Part shown: one piece after another, positions 3,404 through 20,223 of the stretch | Numbering within the stretch: position 1 is the stretch's first letter | Layout of the letters: every line of letters starts with the position of its first letter | Source: a virus | Reading direction: 5' to 3' (one strand) | IMG/VR virus record: IMGVR_UViG_3300032087_004694 | Coordinates: 1 to 23,933 of that record | Length of the DNA stretch: 23,933 nucleotides | The notes under the pieces: model-generated | Told to the model about the DNA's origin: nothing | Databases searched by the model: none | What the model saw: only the letters and a program-made list of their open reading frames with translations | Translations under genes and position numbers: made by a program

Positions 3404-3584
3404 TGCTTATGTAAACTGGGTAGCAAATCTATCTGATGAAGATTTGACCGTAGGGTTCACTTCTTTGAACCTTGAAATTGATGAGTGTAAAAAGCAGAAT
3501 GCAAAAAGCCGTTTGAAGTATCTTCAAGCTTGTTATGATGTGAATATGGAGGAATATATGAAACGAGGTCTTTATGAATCATAA
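3396..3584 (+). CDS. Small hypothetical protein (62 aa)
   Basis: ATG 3396 overlaps the end of the preceding gene by 8 nt and is preceded by GGAAGGA. The 62-residue acidic product appears helical throughout, with charged repeats and no membrane segment. Its stop overlaps the aldolase start by 11 nt, so the three genes are translationally linked. No family recognised. Confidence 0.65.
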   Translation: MTDAYVNWVANLSDEDLTVGFTSLNLEIDECKKQNAKSRLKYLQACYDVNMEEYMKRGLYES

Positions 3585-4383
3585 ACAGTTATGTGAACCA
3601 GACTTCGGTAAGAAGGGGAACTACACCATTATCCTGCCGATTGATCAGGGTGTAGAGCATGGTCCTCATGCAGCCTTCTATAGCAGTGATCATCCTGAAA
3701 TGATGGATGTGAATTATCAAATTGATTACATTGCTGAGTTACTGCATGAGGGTCTTGTTGGTGCAACAGCATTACCGCAACGCATTGCCAATCTTCTAGT
3801 AAAGAAATATCCGCATCTTACCAAGAATGTTATTATGAAACTAAATCATGGTAACAATCTGAACAAAGACATTGAACCATCGCAAGCTGTATTTGCTTCA
3901 TCTTATTCAGCACGAAATATGGGAGCAGTAGGATATACAATCTATCCTGGTTCTTCAAAGCAAGATCAAATGATTGATCAGTTTAGTATGGTTCGATCCC
4001 ATAAGCCGGGTGGTGTAAAGACTGTTCTTTGGTCCTATCCACGTGGTGGCGACTTTAATCCTACATCATTTGAAACCACACTACATGCAGCATACATTGC
4101 AGCACAGTTAGAACCAGATGTGATCAAGGTAAAACTACCTGATTATGATAACATGCCAACTCTTTGTATTCGTGTGGATAATGTTGTGAAGGCAGCCTGC
4201 GGACTTCCTGTAGTCTTCTCTGGTGGTTCTAAACGGTCTGAGGGATCGCTGTTGATGGAAGCAGAAGCAATCTCCAAGAATGGTGGGTATGGTATGATTG
4301 TAGGACGTAATGTATTCCAACGTAAACCAGCAGAAGCAAAGAATCTGCTGAGAGACATACACAAAATATTTAGGGAGAGTTAA
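3574..4383 (+). CDS. Class I fructose-bisphosphate aldolase (DhnA/FbaB type)
   Basis: This 269-residue protein is a complete (beta/alpha)8 aldolase of the archaeal/FbaB class I type (COG1830 by recollection). The family blocks appear in order: PIDQGVEHGP (22-31), VGYTIYPGS (119-127), WSYPRGG (153-159), IKVK (184-187), FSGGSK (215-220) and IVGRNVFQR (242-250). K187 aligns best with the Schiff-base lysine of Thermoproteus tenax aldolase, and Y155 with its catalytic tyrosine. The likely reaction is reversible cleavage of fructose-1,6-bisphosphate to DHAP and GAP. Related enzymes in the fold include LsrF and the ADH synthase of aromatic biosynthesis, so the substrate is not fixed by sequence alone. 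It is an early-operon auxiliary metabolic gene with no sign of decay. Confidence 0.88.
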   Translation: MNHKQLCEPDFGKKGNYTIILPIDQGVEHGPHAAFYSSDHPEMMDVNYQIDYIAELLHEGLVGATALPQRIANLLVKKYPHLTKNVIMKLNHGNNLNKDIEPSQAVFASSYSARNMGAVGYTIYPGSSKQDQMIDQFSMVRSHKPGGVKTVLWSYPRGGDFNPTSFETTLHAAYIAAQLEPDVIKVKLPDYDNMPTLCIRVDNVVKAACGLPVVFSGGSKRSEGSLLMEAEAISKNGGYGMIVGRNVFQRKPAEAKNLLRDIHKIFRES

Positions 4384-10560: not shown

Positions 10561-10740
10561 TTATTTTGCTCTCTGTCGTTCGGCTTCTTCTTCAAGATAG
10601 TTGATTAGCATAGCAAGATAGATTTCTCTCTCCCAAGGTATCATATGATCGATTTCAGTCAAAGAATAATGATGATGTTGCATTAACTGGAAGTTTACCT
10701 GATAATGATTTGTCAGGTTGTCATGAGAGAGGCATACTAA
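10561..10740 (-). CDS. gp26 -1 frameshift extension (59 codons)
   Basis: This open frame begins at a TGA (10747-10749) just before the T8 run and ends at TAA 10561-10563, directly before the tape-measure ATG. It encodes 59 residues from TTA 10738-10740, including QHHHYSLTEIDHMIPWEREI and a charged helix. It has no good start: the first ATG (10683) lacks a well-spaced ribosome site. A His-rich stretch, then a 'W-E-R-E-hydrophobic' helix and an acidic end look like the C-terminal 'T' part of tail assembly chaperones. If the -1 shift occurs, gp26 (237 aa) becomes a 296-aa fusion. A small independently translated gp51-like protein of 40 aa is the alternative. Confidence 0.7.
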   Translation of the reverse strand, partial: LVCLSHDNLTNHYQVNFQLMQHHHYSLTEIDHMIPWEREIYLAMLINYLEEEAERQRAK

Positions 10741-10761
10741 AAAAAATCAGCGGTTCCTTCC
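10737..10761 (-). other. Candidate -1 programmed ribosomal frameshift site
   Basis: Reading the minus strand, the gp26 frame ends GAT TTT TTT TAG. The T TTT TTT heptamer (10746-10740) allows both tRNAs to re-pair after a -1 slip, and the stop codon follows at once. A GGAAGGA (10761-10755) lies 8 nt upstream, where a Shine-Dalgarno-like stimulator can act. A 6-bp stem (ACCTGA/TCAGGT) starts 21 nt downstream, probably too far to matter. Confidence 0.7.
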
Positions 10762-11450
10762 AGTGTCAACTTATTATCATGACCACAGCTACCACATTGA
10801 AACTCTACATCGTGTTTGAGTCGTGGCATCTTTTCAATAAAATCTCGAACCTTTATGAACTGCTCTGTCGAGAACGATTCAATAAAGTTCATCACTTCTT
10901 CAGGTGTCTCTTCTTCCAGCGAGAATCTTTCCTCTTTTGTTTCAACTGCGCTAATACAAGCAGCAATCATATCAAACGCTTGATCAGTTTGACTCCCTTT
11001 GTATTTAACCATTTTAGGGCCAATGTCTTTCAAAGTAGGATACTTCATTTCTAAAGTAATATCAGAAGACAGTTTAATCTTCTTTGCATTAGCTCCCTTA
11101 GGAACTTTAATATCAACCTTTGAGATATCTACTTTAATCTCATTAGATGTTTCACACTCGGTACACTTCGCTTTAATATCGCTAGACTCGCCTACGGACT
11201 TGCTACGGATCTGAGTGAAGAGATATTCGATGTCAAAGATCGGAAGGGTTCTTACGTTAATCTCTTCATCAATACAAGACTCAAGAGTATCGCAGATTGC
11301 TTCAAGTGAACCAAGTTCATCGCCCTGCTCTAGAGCAATCATTAAAACCTTTTCTTCTTTTACGAGATATGGTCTAAATCTAATTGTGTCGCCACTAGAT
11401 GGAATTTTTGTAGAATATTTAATCGTTTCATTAAGTTTTGGCAAAGCCAT
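10737..11450 (-). CDS. 26: gp26-like baseplate hub / tail assembly protein
   Basis: The 237-residue product resembles the T4 baseplate protein family (gp26, PF12322 by recollection; T4 gp26 is 208 aa). Features are FRPYLVKEEKVLM near residues 25-37, a C-x2-C pair at 96/99 (CTEC) and a second at 219/222 (CGSC), which could form zinc knuckles. T4 gp26 acts in hub assembly with gp51. Here it precedes the tape-measure-like gene and ends at a slippery sequence, which suggests a G-type tail chaperone role. ATG 11450 has GGAG upstream. The frame terminates at TAG 10737-10739. Confidence 0.75.
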   Translation of the reverse strand: MALPKLNETIKYSTKIPSSGDTIRFRPYLVKEEKVLMIALEQGDELGSLEAICDTLESCIDEEINVRTLPIFDIEYLFTQIRSKSVGESSDIKAKCTECETSNEIKVDISKVDIKVPKGANAKKIKLSSDITLEMKYPTLKDIGPKMVKYKGSQTDQAFDMIAACISAVETKEERFSLEEETPEEVMNFIESFSTEQFIKVRDFIEKMPRLKHDVEFQCGSCGHDNKLTLEGTADFF

Positions 11451-11468
11451 GATAATATCACTCCATAA

Positions 11469-11978
11469 TTATCTAATTCGTTCCCAGTCAGTATAGGAAA
11501 GTTGAACGCTGAGTTGTACTAATTGATTTTGATTATCGTCACCAAGTTCGATTGCTTGCATTGTTGTGGGAAATGCTTTTAATAATTTACAAGCATATAC
11601 CACTGAGTTATCGCCATGATCTAGTTGTTGAATCACAACTGTCTTGGCGTATTCACTTTTATATTTTAGTTCATAAGTGTCAAATCCAATAATTTCCTCT
11701 TGCCAGTTTTCAAAGTATCTTCTCATTGAATAGTCTTGATCAAGGAGGAATGTAAGGTTGACATCTTCAGATAAAAATCCATATGGCATTTTCTGAGACA
11801 TCATACCAATCGTTCTTTCGTTGGTTACGATTTGACGTCCAGGAATATTGACAGCACGGCAAAGAGCATCAATCGTTCTAGCATCTCCACCAAACTCTGT
11901 CGGCAAGATTACTCTGTATCTATCTGATCTAGATATACCTTTGGATACTCTACCCTTTAAGTCTTCTACACTTGCCAT
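11469..11978 (-). CDS. gp19-fold tail tube protein, probable gp54 tube initiator
   Basis: The 169-residue product has the tail-tube pattern: RYRVILP (near 21-27), LCRAVNIPGRQI (39-50), PYGF followed by DVNLTFLLDQD (about 65-82), a YFENWQEEI helix, and a final LSVQLSYTDWERI strand. Length equals T4 tube gp19 (163 aa), but the major tube gene normally lies beside the sheath and portal genes. The baseplate context (gp26, gp48 and gp4 nearby) therefore favours gp54, the protein that starts tube growth on the baseplate, or a tube paralogue. It overlaps the upstream stop as TAATG. Fold call is good; the exact role is open. Confidence 0.7.
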   Translation of the reverse strand: MASVEDLKGRVSKGISRSDRYRVILPTEFGGDARTIDALCRAVNIPGRQIVTNERTIGMMSQKMPYGFLSEDVNLTFLLDQDYSMRRYFENWQEEIIGFDTYELKYKSEYAKTVVIQQLDHGDNSVVYACKLLKAFPTTMQAIELGDDNQNQLVQLSVQLSYTDWERIR

Positions 11979-13051: not shown

Positions 13052-13915
13052 GTGGCATTTAACTTTCCATTAGTTCCAGATGAGAAGTATGAAGGTAAGA
13101 TTAGTTTCACTGCACTAAACTCTTCAACAGGTGCACAAAGAGCTGCCCAAAGAGCAGCTTATGCTTCTTCCATTGGAAGTTCTGATCAGATAGGAAGATT
13201 TGGTAGAGGTGATCAGGGGCAAACAATCACCACTACAGGTGGAACAGTAAACCTTTATCTTCCACAGGGATTAAATTTCCAGGATGGTGTTCAATATGAG
13301 AACACTGATCTGGGTATTATTGGATCAGCGATTGCTGGTGCCACTCGAACAGTATATAATGATCCCTCTGTTAGAGGTATTCAGGCAGTTACAAGTACGG
13401 CATCTTCAGTTGCCGATCAAGTATTCTCTAATATGTTTGGCGCCCAGAATAGAGAAGCAGCTGCTGGATTAGCAGAAAGATTCGCTCCGGGTGGACTTGG
13501 TGATGCGATTGCGATGGGAACTGGTATTACAGCAAACCCTCACAGAAGATCGATCTTTAGAGACGTTGCATTGAGACAGTTTAGTTTTAATTTTACCATG
13601 GTTCCTGCTAGCCCTGAAGAGGCTGCAGTATCTGAAGAGATTGTTAAATTTTTTAGAGTTAACATGTATCCAGAAAGGACTGGTCCAGCTGGTTCGCTGT
13701 ATAAATTCCCAACTAAATTTGAGATTAAACTTTCCTATAAAGGGGAAGAAGTAGCCACTAAAATTCTTCCTTGTTATCTAACATCTACACAAACTCAATA
13801 TAATCCTAGATCCGGATCATTCCATACTGACAGTAAGTTTAATGAGATTGGTATCTCTTTATCGTTCCAGGAAGAGACGACACTGGATAAACAGAAGATT
13901 GAGGAAGGTTACTAA
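13052..13915 (+). CDS. 48: gp48 baseplate tail-tube cap
   Basis: The 287-residue product starts at GTG 13052 with TAGG (13040-13043) upstream. The N-terminal half is Ala/Gly/Ser-rich. The C-terminal half has the gp48/gp54 tube-like signature: NPHRRSIFRDVALRQFSFNF (about residues 162-181), MYPERTG, then FPTKFEIKLSY. T4 gp48 (364 aa) caps the central hub and is the platform for gp54 and the tube. The stop overlaps gp53 as TAATG, which begins a tightly packed operon. Confidence 0.85.
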   Translation: MAFNFPLVPDEKYEGKISFTALNSSTGAQRAAQRAAYASSIGSSDQIGRFGRGDQGQTITTTGGTVNLYLPQGLNFQDGVQYENTDLGIIGSAIAGATRTVYNDPSVRGIQAVTSTASSVADQVFSNMFGAQNREAAAGLAERFAPGGLGDAIAMGTGITANPHRRSIFRDVALRQFSFNFTMVPASPEEAAVSEEIVKFFRVNMYPERTGPAGSLYKFPTKFEIKLSYKGEEVATKILPCYLTSTQTQYNPRSGSFHTDSKFNEIGISLSFQEETTLDKQKIEEGY

Positions 13916-15696
13916 TGTCTTATTTTACTAATTTCCCATTCGTCAATTATGTATTTGGTAATCAGCCAGGACCTACTGTGTTTCAGAACATGGGTGTTTA
14001 TGTTGACTTGTTAGATATTGCTAAAGATGATGCTGCATTCTACACCTACTATGATATTCAGAATGGCGATCGTCCAGATCAGGTATCACAAAAGTTATAC
14101 GGTAGATCAGATCTTCATTGGACTTTTGCAATTATGAATGATGACATTAAAATTCAAGGATGGCCGCTCAGTTATAATGACCTTTTACAAAAAGCAAAAG
14201 ATGATTATCCGAATGTAACGATTACAACTCGTACAGATGTCACAAGCAAATTTAAAGTTGGTAGTATTCTAACAGGTAGTACGGGTCAGTCTAAAGGCAA
14301 GATTATAAGAAAAAGACTTGATCTTGGGCAAATTATTGTAGAAAGAGTTTCTGATGATTATCAAATTACACAGACTACTGATGTTAAAGGATATATTAAA
14401 TTAGAACTTCCATCAGTGTATTATAGATTTACAGAATTAGCTGATTGGATTATTACTAAAGATGGTGTTGCGATTACTGCTCCTACAATTAAGTCAGGTG
14501 GCGCTAATCATACATTTATTGAATATGACTTTGGTAAAACAAATGCGAATACAGAATATGTGTTTAATACTAAAATCCTAAACTATGCAGTCACTCCTTC
14601 ATTCTTATCTGGTGAACAGATTACTACAACAGAAGAAGGGGTTCTTCAGTCAGCGATTGTAGATAGTTCATCATTAGAATATTTGGCAACTCATCACTAT
14701 GAAGATGCGAATGAAAGGTATGTAGATATTAATCCGAATGCTCCGTTTGTACAAAGAATTTCTGTTGAGCTTGAACTAGATGGAGCAACCGATGCAAATG
14801 TAAACAATGCTGTAGTTAAAAGCATCAGCGCTTCTACAACCCTGGATTATGCTACAAACATTACCTTAACCGATATTCAAAGAAATATCGATCAAGGATT
14901 CTATACCATTACAGGATCGATCTTAAAAGCAACTGTCGATGCATATAATGACGTAATTAATATAGACATTACCAAGACTCTTGATGGCCTGACCGGAATA
15001 GGTGGTGCTACCGATAACGACTTTGACAACAATTTCCCCTCTGGCACAAGTCTTACAGAGTTAAACAGTGAGCTTAGGACAGAGTTAAAAGCAGCTGTAG
15101 GTGTAGCTGATACCAACAGCAATAGCAAATACACTGTTACGGTTCATATGTTCTTCTTGATTGATAATCAATTGAACATCGTGCTTGCTCAAGAAAATGC
15201 TTTTGGTACTGTTTATGAATATAAAGTAGGTGGTGTAGATACATTTAAAGTTACATATACCGAAAATGAAGTTACTACTGTATCTTCACCTGCTCCTACG
15301 ACTCAGGCGGAGGCATGGACCGATGCTGCAACACAATTAGAAAGTTATATTCAACAAAACCTCTCTACATTTAATCCAGCACTGTTAAATCAAGTAACAT
15401 ATTTTGATCGATATGAAAGAAGTAATAATGCGCTTAAATCAATCCGTGTTCTCAAACCATCTATCGCAGATGAATTAGTTAAAGCATTTAATGATATTCT
15501 GGTTGAGTCGCAGGACTTTGGAGATCAAGTCGAACAAAATACTACAGTTCAAGGTGGTAGTGGCATCTCTGCTGTAACAGCATCATCTCAACCTGTGACA
15601 ACTTTGGCAGGGCAAACAGTAACATCTAGTAGTGCTGCAGCAGTCAGTTCTGCAACATCTGGATCGAGTAGCAGTAGTGGTGGTGGTTATTACTAA
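13915..15696 (+). CDS. 53: gp53 baseplate wedge protein with large insert
   Basis: Residues 1-95 match gp53: SYFTNFPFVNY, then YYDIQNGDRPDQVSQKLYG (45-63, LysM-like) and GWPLSYNDLL (82-91). More gp53 sequence follows up to HHYED...DINP (260-274) and resumes at TYFDRYERSNNALKSIRVLK (about 496-515). Between them lies about 210 residues of beta-rich, Thr/Asp-rich sequence without family resemblance, making the protein 593 aa against 196 in T4. The end is a Ser/Gly low-complexity tail. gp53 links wedges around the hub, so the insert probably decorates the baseplate surface. Stop and next start overlap (TAATG). Confidence 0.82.
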   Translation: MSYFTNFPFVNYVFGNQPGPTVFQNMGVYVDLLDIAKDDAAFYTYYDIQNGDRPDQVSQKLYGRSDLHWTFAIMNDDIKIQGWPLSYNDLLQKAKDDYPNVTITTRTDVTSKFKVGSILTGSTGQSKGKIIRKRLDLGQIIVERVSDDYQITQTTDVKGYIKLELPSVYYRFTELADWIITKDGVAITAPTIKSGGANHTFIEYDFGKTNANTEYVFNTKILNYAVTPSFLSGEQITTTEEGVLQSAIVDSSSLEYLATHHYEDANERYVDINPNAPFVQRISVELELDGATDANVNNAVVKSISASTTLDYATNITLTDIQRNIDQGFYTITGSILKATVDAYNDVINIDITKTLDGLTGIGGATDNDFDNNFPSGTSLTELNSELRTELKAAVGVADTNSNSKYTVTVHMFFLIDNQLNIVLAQENAFGTVYEYKVGGVDTFKVTYTENEVTTVSSPAPTTQAEAWTDAATQLESYIQQNLSTFNPALLNQVTYFDRYERSNNALKSIRVLKPSIADELVKAFNDILVESQDFGDQVEQNTTVQGGSGISAVTASSQPVTTLAGQTVTSSSAAAVSSATSGSSSSSGGGYY

Positions 15697-17051: not shown

Positions 17052-17411
17052 ATGGATCCATTTAACGATAGAAAATTCTATGGAGATGAAACTAGATGGT
17101 TCGTTGGTGTTGTAGAAGACAATGATGATCCGGAGCAACTTGGTCGTGTTCGTGTAAGAATCTTTGGTATTCATTCACCATATTACAAAGATATTGAGAT
17201 TGAAGATTTACCTTGGGCAGCAGTATTAATGCCAGCAACTGAAGGTGGTATCTCTGGTACAGGTAGATCACCGAATGGTATTCAACAAGGGGCATATGTA
17301 TTTGGATTATTCTTAGATGGTAAACAATCACAGAATCCTTTGATTTTTGGTTCTATACCTAAATTTGAGACTGAAGATGGAGATAACATCGAGCCGGTGG
17401 AACATAGATGA
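17052..17411 (+). CDS. 5: gp5 OB-fold domain as a separate hub gene
   Basis: This 119-residue protein is the N-terminal OB domain of T4 gp5 on its own. It carries WFVGVVEDNDDPEQLGRVRV (16-35), then IHSPYYK, LPWAAVLMP (about 54-62) and FLDGKQSQNPLIFGS near the end. In T4 this domain binds gp27 and is followed in the same chain by lysozyme and a beta-helix. Here the frame stops (TGA 17409-17411) and overlaps the next start as ATGA. The gene is complete, with no frameshift remnant, so the split is real unless a stop is recoded. Confidence 0.85.
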   Translation: MDPFNDRKFYGDETRWFVGVVEDNDDPEQLGRVRVRIFGIHSPYYKDIEIEDLPWAAVLMPATEGGISGTGRSPNGIQQGAYVFGLFLDGKQSQNPLIFGSIPKFETEDGDNIEPVEHR

Positions 17412-17806
17412 TACAGTTACTCGGTACAAGTATAACAGATAAAATCTATAATACTGCGATCTCTCGGCAATATACACCAGAGGCTGCGGCAGCGATTGCT
17501 GCAACAATCTCATTAGAAGTATCTGGTACGACTCTGATTCCTTATAGGGGAGATCGATATAGAAAATATGCTGATTACTGTGAAAGAAAAGATTCAAATC
17601 CTCAGTTACCAGATACTCAGATTGCATTTATTTTTGATAATCTTTCCGACTATAATACATCAAAGGTAAAGTATGCGAAAACAATTGATGATGCAGTTAC
17701 AGCATTTAATGAAGAGTATTTGAAAAAAACATTAAATACTACTGAGTTTTTAACTTTAACTATTTTAGCAAATGAAATTAATAGACTGTTTGTGGAAGAA
17801 GCGTAG
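17408..17806 (+). CDS. Phage tail lysozyme-like hub protein
   Basis: The 132-residue product begins inside the stop of the OB-domain gene. The order YTPEAAAAIAATISLEVSG (22-40, with a Glu in the catalytic position), a central Arg/Tyr-rich region, TQIAFIFDNL (about 70-79) and AVTAFNEEYLK (about 98-108) resembles the phage tail lysozyme family (Phage_lysozyme2) in outline. In T4 gp5 a lysozyme domain follows the OB domain, so position agrees. The resemblance is moderate. The family's usual Gly-rich and Gln-Trp substrate-site elements are not evident, so it may be inactive or a different muramidase-like fold. Confidence 0.55.
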   Translation: MIQLLGTSITDKIYNTAISRQYTPEAAAAIAATISLEVSGTTLIPYRGDRYRKYADYCERKDSNPQLPDTQIAFIFDNLSDYNTSKVKYAKTIDDAVTAFNEEYLKKTLNTTEFLTLTILANEINRLFVEEA

Positions 17807-19033
17807 ATGACTACCATAGGCGATATTACAGGCAAACTGACTAACAACCTTGGTGCTCTGCTAGAAGATTTAACCGAAGTTGGCACAGCAGCAGGTGCAG
17901 CAACACTGCAGTATGACCTGTTGACTGCCAGCGCACAAGATGCTACGATTGGTTCTAATAAAAATGGTTTAGAGATTGTAGGTAGTGCAGGTAAAAGGCT
18001 ACGTGATGATGGGACAGTTAAGAATACAGCTGTTGCAGTTTTCTCAGATAATCTGGGAACATTCGGATCACTAACTTCTACAACTGGTGGGGCATTGCTT
18101 GTAAAGACCGTGACTGGCGCTACAGCAGATGCTGCAGATGCTGCATTCCGTAATACATTCGGCAGCGCATTAACTAAGAGGCAAATGTTCGAAGCATCTC
18201 TGGTTGCTTCTGAGGCATTAGCGGATTCATCCATACTTCCTCTTGGTGCATCAACTCAATCTCTAATTAATGATGCTGGGAGAATATTGATCCAAAGATC
18301 TAATATTATGTTAGAGAATGCCAATTTTAAAGAATCTATACTAGAAGATTTAGTGGAAGAAACTGAACTCTCAAAGAATGTCAGTATTACTAAACTTGTT
18401 TCAGATACTGCTGGTCGACCATCCATACCAGTTGTAGATTACAGAAAAGATGTGCCTCCTAGAACATTGCTTCAGACATTTGAAGAAATGGAAGCATATA
18501 TTCGATCTTGTTCTAGAGAGATTACAGAAGTAGTAGTGCATGCTACAGACACATCTAGGGACATGGAAGTAAGTTATGATGTTCTCAGAGTATGGGATGT
18601 AACAAATAGAGGATTAGATGATGTTGGTTATCATTTAATTATTCTAAGGGACGGTTCTATTCAAGTTTGTAGACCTATTTCGATTCAAGGTGCGCACACG
18701 CTGAAAGATCATAATCCATATAGTATTGGTATTGCCTTTGTTGGTGGACTTATGGGTAATCGTAAAAAAGATCAATTTAAAAGATCACATAAGTCATATA
18801 CAATGGAACAGTTTAATACTTTTGACACATTTATGAAAGCATTTTATACTGTAATCCCAGGTGGTCAAGCATGGGGGCATAATGATATTGACTATACGAG
18901 AAGGTCGGATCCACATTTTGATGTGCCAAAATATGTGAGAAATAAATTTAATAAGACGAATGTACAAACTGTTGAAGAAACTAGAGAGAATGGTTCTTTA
19001 ACAATTGATCAATTAATAGAGGCTCAGAATTAA
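17807..19033 (+). CDS. Virion N-acetylmuramoyl-L-alanine amidase (Amidase_2/AmpD-like)
   Basis: The 408-residue protein has an Ala/Thr/Gly-rich N-terminal part of unknown fold (1-225) and a C-terminal Amidase_2 domain (about 235-385). Zinc ligands can be placed at H245 (VVHATD), H358 (WGHNDID) and D368 (RRSDPHFD). The 10-residue spacing of the last two equals AmpD H154/D164. GAHTL and SIGIAFVGG (about 300-321) are also family blocks. It would cut the bond between MurNAc and L-Ala during tail penetration. Its place between the gp5 OB and needle genes suggests it replaces or adds to gp5 lysozyme. The start directly follows the previous TAG. Confidence 0.88.
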   Translation: MTTIGDITGKLTNNLGALLEDLTEVGTAAGAATLQYDLLTASAQDATIGSNKNGLEIVGSAGKRLRDDGTVKNTAVAVFSDNLGTFGSLTSTTGGALLVKTVTGATADAADAAFRNTFGSALTKRQMFEASLVASEALADSSILPLGASTQSLINDAGRILIQRSNIMLENANFKESILEDLVEETELSKNVSITKLVSDTAGRPSIPVVDYRKDVPPRTLLQTFEEMEAYIRSCSREITEVVVHATDTSRDMEVSYDVLRVWDVTNRGLDDVGYHLIILRDGSIQVCRPISIQGAHTLKDHNPYSIGIAFVGGLMGNRKKDQFKRSHKSYTMEQFNTFDTFMKAFYTVIPGGQAWGHNDIDYTRRSDPHFDVPKYVRNKFNKTNVQTVEETRENGSLTIDQLIEAQN

Positions 19034-20223
19034 TGGCTGATATTGGCGAAGATACAGTAAGCGCAAAGTCTGGAGAAGGCACAGCAGGAACTGATGCTGC
19101 TCGGAATGATGCAACTGCGCCTGCATCTGGCGGCGATTTTGGATTTAAAGATCCAGATAAAGCCTTTCCTCCAGAGGAATATAAAGGCAGTCAAAAGACA
19201 AGCGTAGCTGCTAGAGGCGAATGGCAACCCAAATTAAAGTTACCTGATGGACAACCATTTGAAGTTCCTCAGGATGCACAGCCAGAATATCCTCATAATA
19301 AAGTCACTGAGTCTACTAATCCAAACCCAGACGAACGCCACCGTATGGAGATTGACGACACTCCATCCGAACCTCGTGTAACTCTTGTTCATAAAAATGG
19401 GACAGGAGTAGAGATGATGGAAAAGGATAAACTCCTTGTCGTCAATTCTTCTGGTCGAATGGTGCAATTAGTCGGTGATGACTTTGAGATGTTTGTTGCT
19501 GGCAACGGAACAGTTATCTATAAAGGTAATCTTGATTGGACAGTCGAAGGTAATATGAGTTTGACTGTAAAGGGTAATATGGAAACAACCGTTGAAGGCA
19601 CTAAAACTGAAATTGTCAAAAAATCTGTAATTGAAGAATATCAAGATGATCAAGAAACTACAGTAACAAATAATAAATCCACAACTGTTGGTGAAACAAG
19701 TACAGAACTTGTTCTTGGTAATAAGAATAGCTTTGTTAAGCAGAAACAGAGTAACTGGGTAAAGGGTGATGCTGAGTTTTTATCTGGCGCTAATACTCAT
19801 ATTTCTTCACAGACTAAAACATCTATTTCGTCAACCACGGTTAATATGACTAGCTCCACAATGAATATTGCAGGAGGAGCAGGCACTATTGGTGGTCCTG
19901 GAATATATCACTCTGGCGCAGCTTGGGATGGGACACTATATGTTATAGGCGATTTGTTAGTCGATAGCGATATAACTGCCGGCAATGAGATTAAAGTTGG
20001 CAATGATATTACTGCGTTTGATGCGGTAACAGCAGCTACGGTATCAGGAACTGTTGGACTATTAAACACTGCTAATGTTTACACTAAACCTAGCGCATCA
20101 AGCATTGGAGTCACTCTTGCTGCTTCTCCTGAAGGTATTATGCAAATTACAGTTGATGAAGCTGATAAGATTAAGCAGTCTATTGATCTAAGAGAACGTG
20201 TTGCATTAGGATTGGGTTTATAA
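19033..20223 (+). CDS. 5: gp5 C-terminal triple beta-helix needle as a separate gene
   Basis: The 396-residue product has an acidic, disordered N-terminal part (1-110). It then has GTGVEMMEKDKLLVVNSSGR (about 122-141) and octad repeats of the V-x-G-x5 type (VEGNMSLT, VKGNMETT, VEGTKTEI, about 170-193). A long Thr/Ser/Asn-rich beta-helix and a second short-repeat region (GDLLVDSDITAGNEIKVGND, about 310-330) follow. The octads are the hallmark of the T4 gp5C needle that pierces the outer membrane. In T4 gp5C is made by cleavage of gp5, but here it is encoded apart. Start overlaps the amidase stop (TAATG). Confidence 0.85.
   Translation: MADIGEDTVSAKSGEGTAGTDAARNDATAPASGGDFGFKDPDKAFPPEEYKGSQKTSVAARGEWQPKLKLPDGQPFEVPQDAQPEYPHNKVTESTNPNPDERHRMEIDDTPSEPRVTLVHKNGTGVEMMEKDKLLVVNSSGRMVQLVGDDFEMFVAGNGTVIYKGNLDWTVEGNMSLTVKGNMETTVEGTKTEIVKKSVIEEYQDDQETTVTNNKSTTVGETSTELVLGNKNSFVKQKQSNWVKGDAEFLSGANTHISSQTKTSISSTTVNMTSSTMNIAGGAGTIGGPGIYHSGAAWDGTLYVIGDLLVDSDITAGNEIKVGNDITAFDAVTAATVSGTVGLLNTANVYTKPSASSIGVTLAASPEGIMQITVDEADKIKQSIDLRERVALGLGL

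Follow-up and report, generated by a model that had tools for sequence, protein, structure and literature searches.

Probable -1 programmed frameshifting at the end of gp26 adds a gp51-like extension upstream of a tape-measure-like gene

Phage T4 gp26 and gp51 have long been catalogued as hub assembly factors, gp51 with no function assigned. One source lists the two proteins as chaperones of hub assembly and describes gp51 as a required protein that is missing from the particle (PMC3004832). In the window (the whole 23,933-nt stretch of viral DNA that was analysed), a gp26-family gene stops immediately after a run of T, and an overlapping frame homologous to gp51 remains open beyond that stop. 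This raises the question of how the gp51-like frame is expressed. An earlier note on this DNA had proposed a -1 programmed ribosomal frameshift. We find this very likely, with gp26, the gene before the tape-measure-like one, yielding a tail assembly chaperone in a short and a long version, as judged from sequence comparison.

The 3' end of gp26 reads CTG GAA GGA ACC GCT GAT TTT TTT TAG. The GAT TTT TTT TAG ending with its T TTT TTT heptamer is thus present as the earlier note claimed, and the Shine-Dalgarno (SD)-like GGAAGGA that it described was confirmed at 10761-10755, 8 nt from the heptamer on the 5' side. Translation of the -1 frame reads FF, then LVCLSHDNLTNHYQVNFQLMQHHHYSLTEIDHMIPWEREIYLAMLINYLEEEAERQRAK, then a stop codon. 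Past the slip point there are 59 codons and a TAA, giving a predicted fusion of 296 aa, and the TAA (10563-10561) abuts the ATG of the next gene (10560-10558) with zero gap. Directly 5' of the heptamer the -1 frame is closed by a TGA, and from there on it contains no ATG, GTG or TTG until an ATG at extension codon 21. The predicted length of this frame, its end at the next ATG, its lack of a credible start and the size of the fusion were therefore all borne out. Counting in-phase X_XXY_YYZ heptamers with Y limited to A or T in the main ORFs of the window (7,015 codons) gave 14 sites, and the gp26 site is the sole T_TTT_TTN among them. Table 1 lists the features of the locus.

Table 1. Features of the gp26/gp51 locus and its neighbours, in window positions.
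Feature	Position	Strand	Basis
Tail tube protein (gp19-like), directly upstream of gp26	11469..11978	-	phrog_45 E 3e-33, PF23849 E 3e-8
gp26-family gene, short chaperone (TAC-N), 237 aa	10737..11450	-	PF12322, phrog_150, AlphaFold2 model
SD-like GGAAGGA, possible stimulator	10755..10761	-	sequence; codon preference in relatives
Slippery heptamer T_TTT_TTT, part of T8 run 10739-10746	10740..10746	-	sequence; kept in relatives
0-frame stop TAG, adjoining the heptamer	10737..10739	-	sequence; stop position in relatives
-1 frame extension, gp51 homologue, putative C-terminal part of TAC-NC	10561..10740	-	phrog_634, pN/pS
Probable tape measure protein, 484 aa	9106..10560	-	directly downstream position; function inferred

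Profile searches placed the short protein in PF12322, the T4 gp26 family (E 1.4e-60, residues 10-237), and in phrog_150 (E 6e-65). The extension matched phrog_634 ('baseplate hub assembly catalyst', gp51) with E 3.5e-26 over extension residues 2-60. A sequence search for a solved gp26 structure found none; the best hit (E 0.07) was unrelated. An AlphaFold2 model of gp26 was obtained with pLDDT 87. On realignment its N-terminal domain scored Z 8.0 against 3FGX, and the model scored Z 6.8 against the HK97 tail assembly chaperone, gp13 (PDB 2OB9), with the next row at only Z 4.6. The Foldseek E-value for 2OB9 was about 0.8, and the match to this fold rests on the realignment. The likeness to HK97 gp13 is one of predicted fold over gp26 residues 1-91 (85 residues aligned) at 14% sequence identity, and gp26 is roughly double the length of gp13 and has additional domains that contain CxxC motifs. 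The model therefore supports, without proving, a fold likeness between the gp26 N-terminal domain and the HK97 chaperone.

The gene order is tail tube, gp26/gp51, tape-measure-like gene. The 484-aa protein encoded by the last of these had no Pfam family match. Its counterparts at the same position vary in length from 454 to 752 aa and mostly have hydrophobic segments. The counterpart from Vibrio phage D480 gave a weak hit to a tape-measure family (E 1e-6). Position, size and length variation together point to a tape measure protein. In the lambda precedent the short form binds the tape measure and the extension binds the tube protein, and a review describes the G-T shift as conserved in long-tailed phages 'except T4' (PMC5009743). 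The lambda gpG/gpG-T pair differs in that we saw no sequence homology between it and gp26, the window heptamer is T_TTT_TTN and gp26 carries two CxxC motifs. The fold match, the gene order and the lambda precedent suggest that gp26/gp51 is a tail assembly chaperone pair. Elsewhere in the window, the T4 gp5 counterpart is apparently split over separate ORFs (17052-20223): an OB domain (17052-17411), an Amidase_2 protein (17807-19033) and a gp5 C-terminal beta-helix protein (19033-20223). A 593-aa gp53-like baseplate wedge protein (13915-15696) is covered by the gp53 profile over just its first 100 or so residues, the remainder being an unexplained extension. At 3574-4383 lies a DeoC/LacD-family aldolase gene (PF01791, E 2e-24), possibly a host-derived metabolic gene in the phage.

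The slippery run and the -1 frame are kept in close and distant relatives, as shown by the alignment that the earlier note had named as a check. T_TTT_TTN occurs at the same codon in 170 of the 178 related loci long enough to test, which excludes chance occurrence. These 170 loci, a total that counts some contigs twice, represent 82 distinct extensions and 35 clusters at 50% protein identity. The site search demanded T6N, and full-length loci that lacked it were listed separately; there are eight, from four T4-type genomes, three Ackermannviridae and Vibrio phage K388. Within IMG/VR, all 79 gp26 relatives with a testable 3' end carry T_TTT_TTN at the same codon, and 35 of these have the form T_TTT_TTA or T_TTT_TTG. 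Annotated genomes with the heptamer include C48C1, P-SSM2, S-WAM1, DSL-LC03, Synechococcus phage MC09, Melnitz, Aeromonas phages 65 and Ahp1, Vibrio D480, Sinorhizobium phiM9, Rhizobium IG49, Pseudomonas Astolliot and the jumbo phages GAP32, K64-1 and Vibrio 2.275.O. NNT TTT TTN is used in 35 of 35 clusters, which from background codon use has a joint chance of about 1e-13 if the clusters are taken as independent, as they are only in part. The last base of the heptamer varies freely between T, C, A and G, as expected of a slippery site. The 0-frame stop falls 0 or 1 codon past the heptamer in 74 of 76 unique relatives, and in cyanophages homology of the extension begins exactly at the heptamer. 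Jumbo phages K64-1, GAP32 and Vibrio 2.275.O combine T_TTT_TTC with an extension of about 72 codons (L180:2501-3400; L095:3251-3470; L181:3150-3370), and in the K64-1 record both gp26 and the extension are unannotated.

Alternatively, gp51 could be a separate small protein whose translation begins at an internal start codon, such as the ATG at extension codon 21, or relies on stop-start coupling. Many phage records do annotate a separate 'baseplate hub assembly catalyst', and in some relatives an ATG overlaps the gp26 stop (TAATG in D480, TGATG in phiM9). D480 and phiM9 have both the heptamer and the overlapping ATG, while phiD3 (Ackermannviridae) and Vibrio K388 have TAATG without the heptamer. 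However, the window offers no start codon between the TGA that precedes the heptamer and extension codon 21, so that codons 3-20, the stretch between the heptamer and the first extension ATG of the window, are translatable only if the frame is entered at the heptamer. The first 15 extension codons lack an ATG in 73 of the 82 distinct extensions. Comparison with the closest relatives gave a pN/pS of 0.05-0.10 for the whole extension in the -1 frame, and comparable constraint was absent from its other two frames. For codons 3-20 alone, 177 close pairs gave a pN/pS of 0.10 for the -1 frame, against 1.5 and 2.9 for the remaining two. A separate gp51 would leave these conserved codons untranslated and gives no reason for the conservation of the heptamer. 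At the level of sequence, the constraint on codons 3-20 is the strongest argument against a separate gp51 gene, which we consider very unlikely in the window. Frame-specific purifying selection from the heptamer onwards, together with the absent start codon, supports the extension being the C-terminus of a predicted fusion. The conserved run and frame, and the fact that the short gene has no start it could use in the window, thus favour the -1 frameshift first proposed.

The same fusion could arise in transcription, if RNA polymerase slipped on the T8 run and produced a fraction of mRNA with an altered number of U. A run of eight T precedes 32 of the 82 distinct extensions, including that of the window. 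A run of six T is too short for usual transcriptional slippage, and 47 of the 82 extensions keep the same organisation with just six T followed by C, A or G, which makes this route improbable. The fixed phase of T_TTT_TTN is also a requirement of tandem tRNA slippage, and we give transcriptional slippage only a very slender chance. Homopolymer runs are error-prone in some sequencing technologies, and a sequencing or assembly error in such a misread run, or decay of gp51 as a pseudogene, are further readings of the frame break. The break recurs, however, in 170 loci from many assemblies and also in genomes of isolates, and the extension, far from decaying, is subject to purifying selection. The relatives with the same break refute an error or a pseudogene, and the probability left to either is negligible.

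Under -1 ribosomal frameshifting, we infer the slippage, its efficiency and the binding partners of each form as follows. Most ribosomes translating gp26 would halt at the TAG and release the 237-aa short form. A minority, with P- and A-site tRNAs on T_TTT_TTT, would slip back one base and re-pair as TTT TTT, bypass the TAG and read 59 more codons to give the 296-aa long form with the gp51 domain. If the pair works as lambda gpG/gpGT does, the tape measure protein encoded by the next gene would be coated by the short form, and the long form, the rarer of the two, may use its extension to recruit the tube protein encoded by the previous gene, or the hub. The stop codon that directly follows the heptamer would probably favour slippage, and GGAAGGA, the SD-like sequence upstream, perhaps does so too. 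At the glycine of the SD-like site, GGA or GGG was used in 45 of 68 relatives versus 159 of 442 elsewhere (90% clustering), and at 50% clustering the preference was not significant (p 0.11). The glycine itself is conserved for protein reasons, and the codon preference is only suggestive of a stimulatory role for GGAAGGA. We rejected a downstream stem-loop or pseudoknot as a stimulator in the window, where no stable RNA structure was predicted (z 0.18 and 0.24). Across representatives the mean z was only -0.7 to -1.4, with strong structure in few. Strong hairpins are predicted just 3' of the heptamer in P-SSM2, IG49 and D480, with z down to -4.7, -6.2 and -5.0 (regions L002:2500-2570, L093:3000-3070 and L089:3803-3890). 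Their presence there and absence from the window suggest that stimulators are lineage-dependent.

How does this arrangement relate to the T4 genes? T4 gp26 (208 aa; E 9e-64) and gp51 (249 aa; E 4e-52) each align with PF12322 along most of the protein. Only gp51 of this pair spans nearly all 282 positions of phrog_150, including the extension part; gp51 also matches phrog_634, and its C-terminus aligns with the -1 frame of the window, FFLVCLSHDNLTNHYQVNFQLMQHHHYSLTEIDHMIPWER. By these alignments gp51 is a paralogue of gp26 in T4 and corresponds, in a single reading frame, to the predicted frameshift product. T4 and the window are thus alike in having a chaperone in a short and a long (fused) form, but in T4 the two forms come from two paralogous genes, the longer of which is read in a single frame, whereas the window has one gene and a -1 shift. 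In-frame long forms were confined to T4-type genomes among the loci compared, and no in-frame gp26/extension fusion was found outside T4-type phages in that set. No second, in-frame long copy of gp26 was found in the window: there is one gp26 match in this 23.9-kb record, which is probably a genome fragment. The earlier statement that T4 uses separate gp26 and gp51 is right as to two genes and needs correction in that these are short and long paralogues. The link it drew between T4 hub assembly proteins and the general tail chaperones was supported, in that gp51 has a gp26-like part plus an in-frame extension and the predicted fold of gp26 resembles the HK97 chaperone.

Frameshifting is not universal in the family. 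Ackermannviridae phages CBA120, phiD3 and K5lambda5, together with Vibrio K388, keep the extension frame without the heptamer (L090:3750-3960, L179:3250-3450, L184:3250-3450 and L182:3040-3230). The gp26 stop context is TAATG in phiD3 and K388 and TAATT in CBA120 and K5lambda5. A frameshifted gp26/gp51 may have been ancestral in the T4 superfamily and its jumbo relatives, with duplication in T4 and a separate gp51 in Ackermannviridae and K388, a history to which we give even odds. Duplication in T4 would have swapped the frameshift for two dedicated genes, gp26 and gp51, and in Ackermannviridae and K388-like phages the frameshift would have been replaced by a separate gp51 that is stop-start-coupled or otherwise expressed. 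If this history is true, one chaperone pair with three expression strategies is directly comparable.

The principle is already published. Vladimirov, Gautam and Davidson (2022, Virology 566:9-15) reportedly identified the tail assembly chaperones of T4-like phages and are said to have named genes 26 and 51, which fits the homology found here. According to a passage of the PRFect paper (PMC10885494) that cites Vladimirov 2022, T4-like phages carry a short chaperone gene alongside a longer, fused one. A passage of the Adele paper (PMC12846349), citing the same work, notes that the TAC-N genes of T4-like phages contain poly-T signals for frameshifting. Pseudomonas phage Adele (Vandenendeviridae/Andersonviridae) likewise has a myovirus TAC-N gene that contains a poly-T motif and is followed by an open -1 extension ahead of the tape measure gene, although its motif is reported as GTTTTT and it belongs to other phage families (PMC12846349). 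The present locus is a new, well-supported instance, and what is added here is a broad survey that includes jumbo phages, frame-specific selection and lineages without the heptamer.

The frameshift would account for the 'baseplate hub assembly catalyst' being annotated wrongly or not at all in many genomes of cyanophages and related phages. In public records gp51 is annotated from arbitrary internal ATGs or omitted (L001:2585-2689, L096:3064-3207, L092:3043-3186, L003, L004), and these records could instead show gp26 and gp51 as one joined feature with a -1 frameshift. The sites surveyed here are broad in range and could serve directly as a panel on which to measure what sets the ratio of short to long form. 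In most of these phages gp51 would be the end of a longer gp26 and not a separate gene, which supports the view that the general tail assembly chaperones are represented in T4 by gp26 and gp51.
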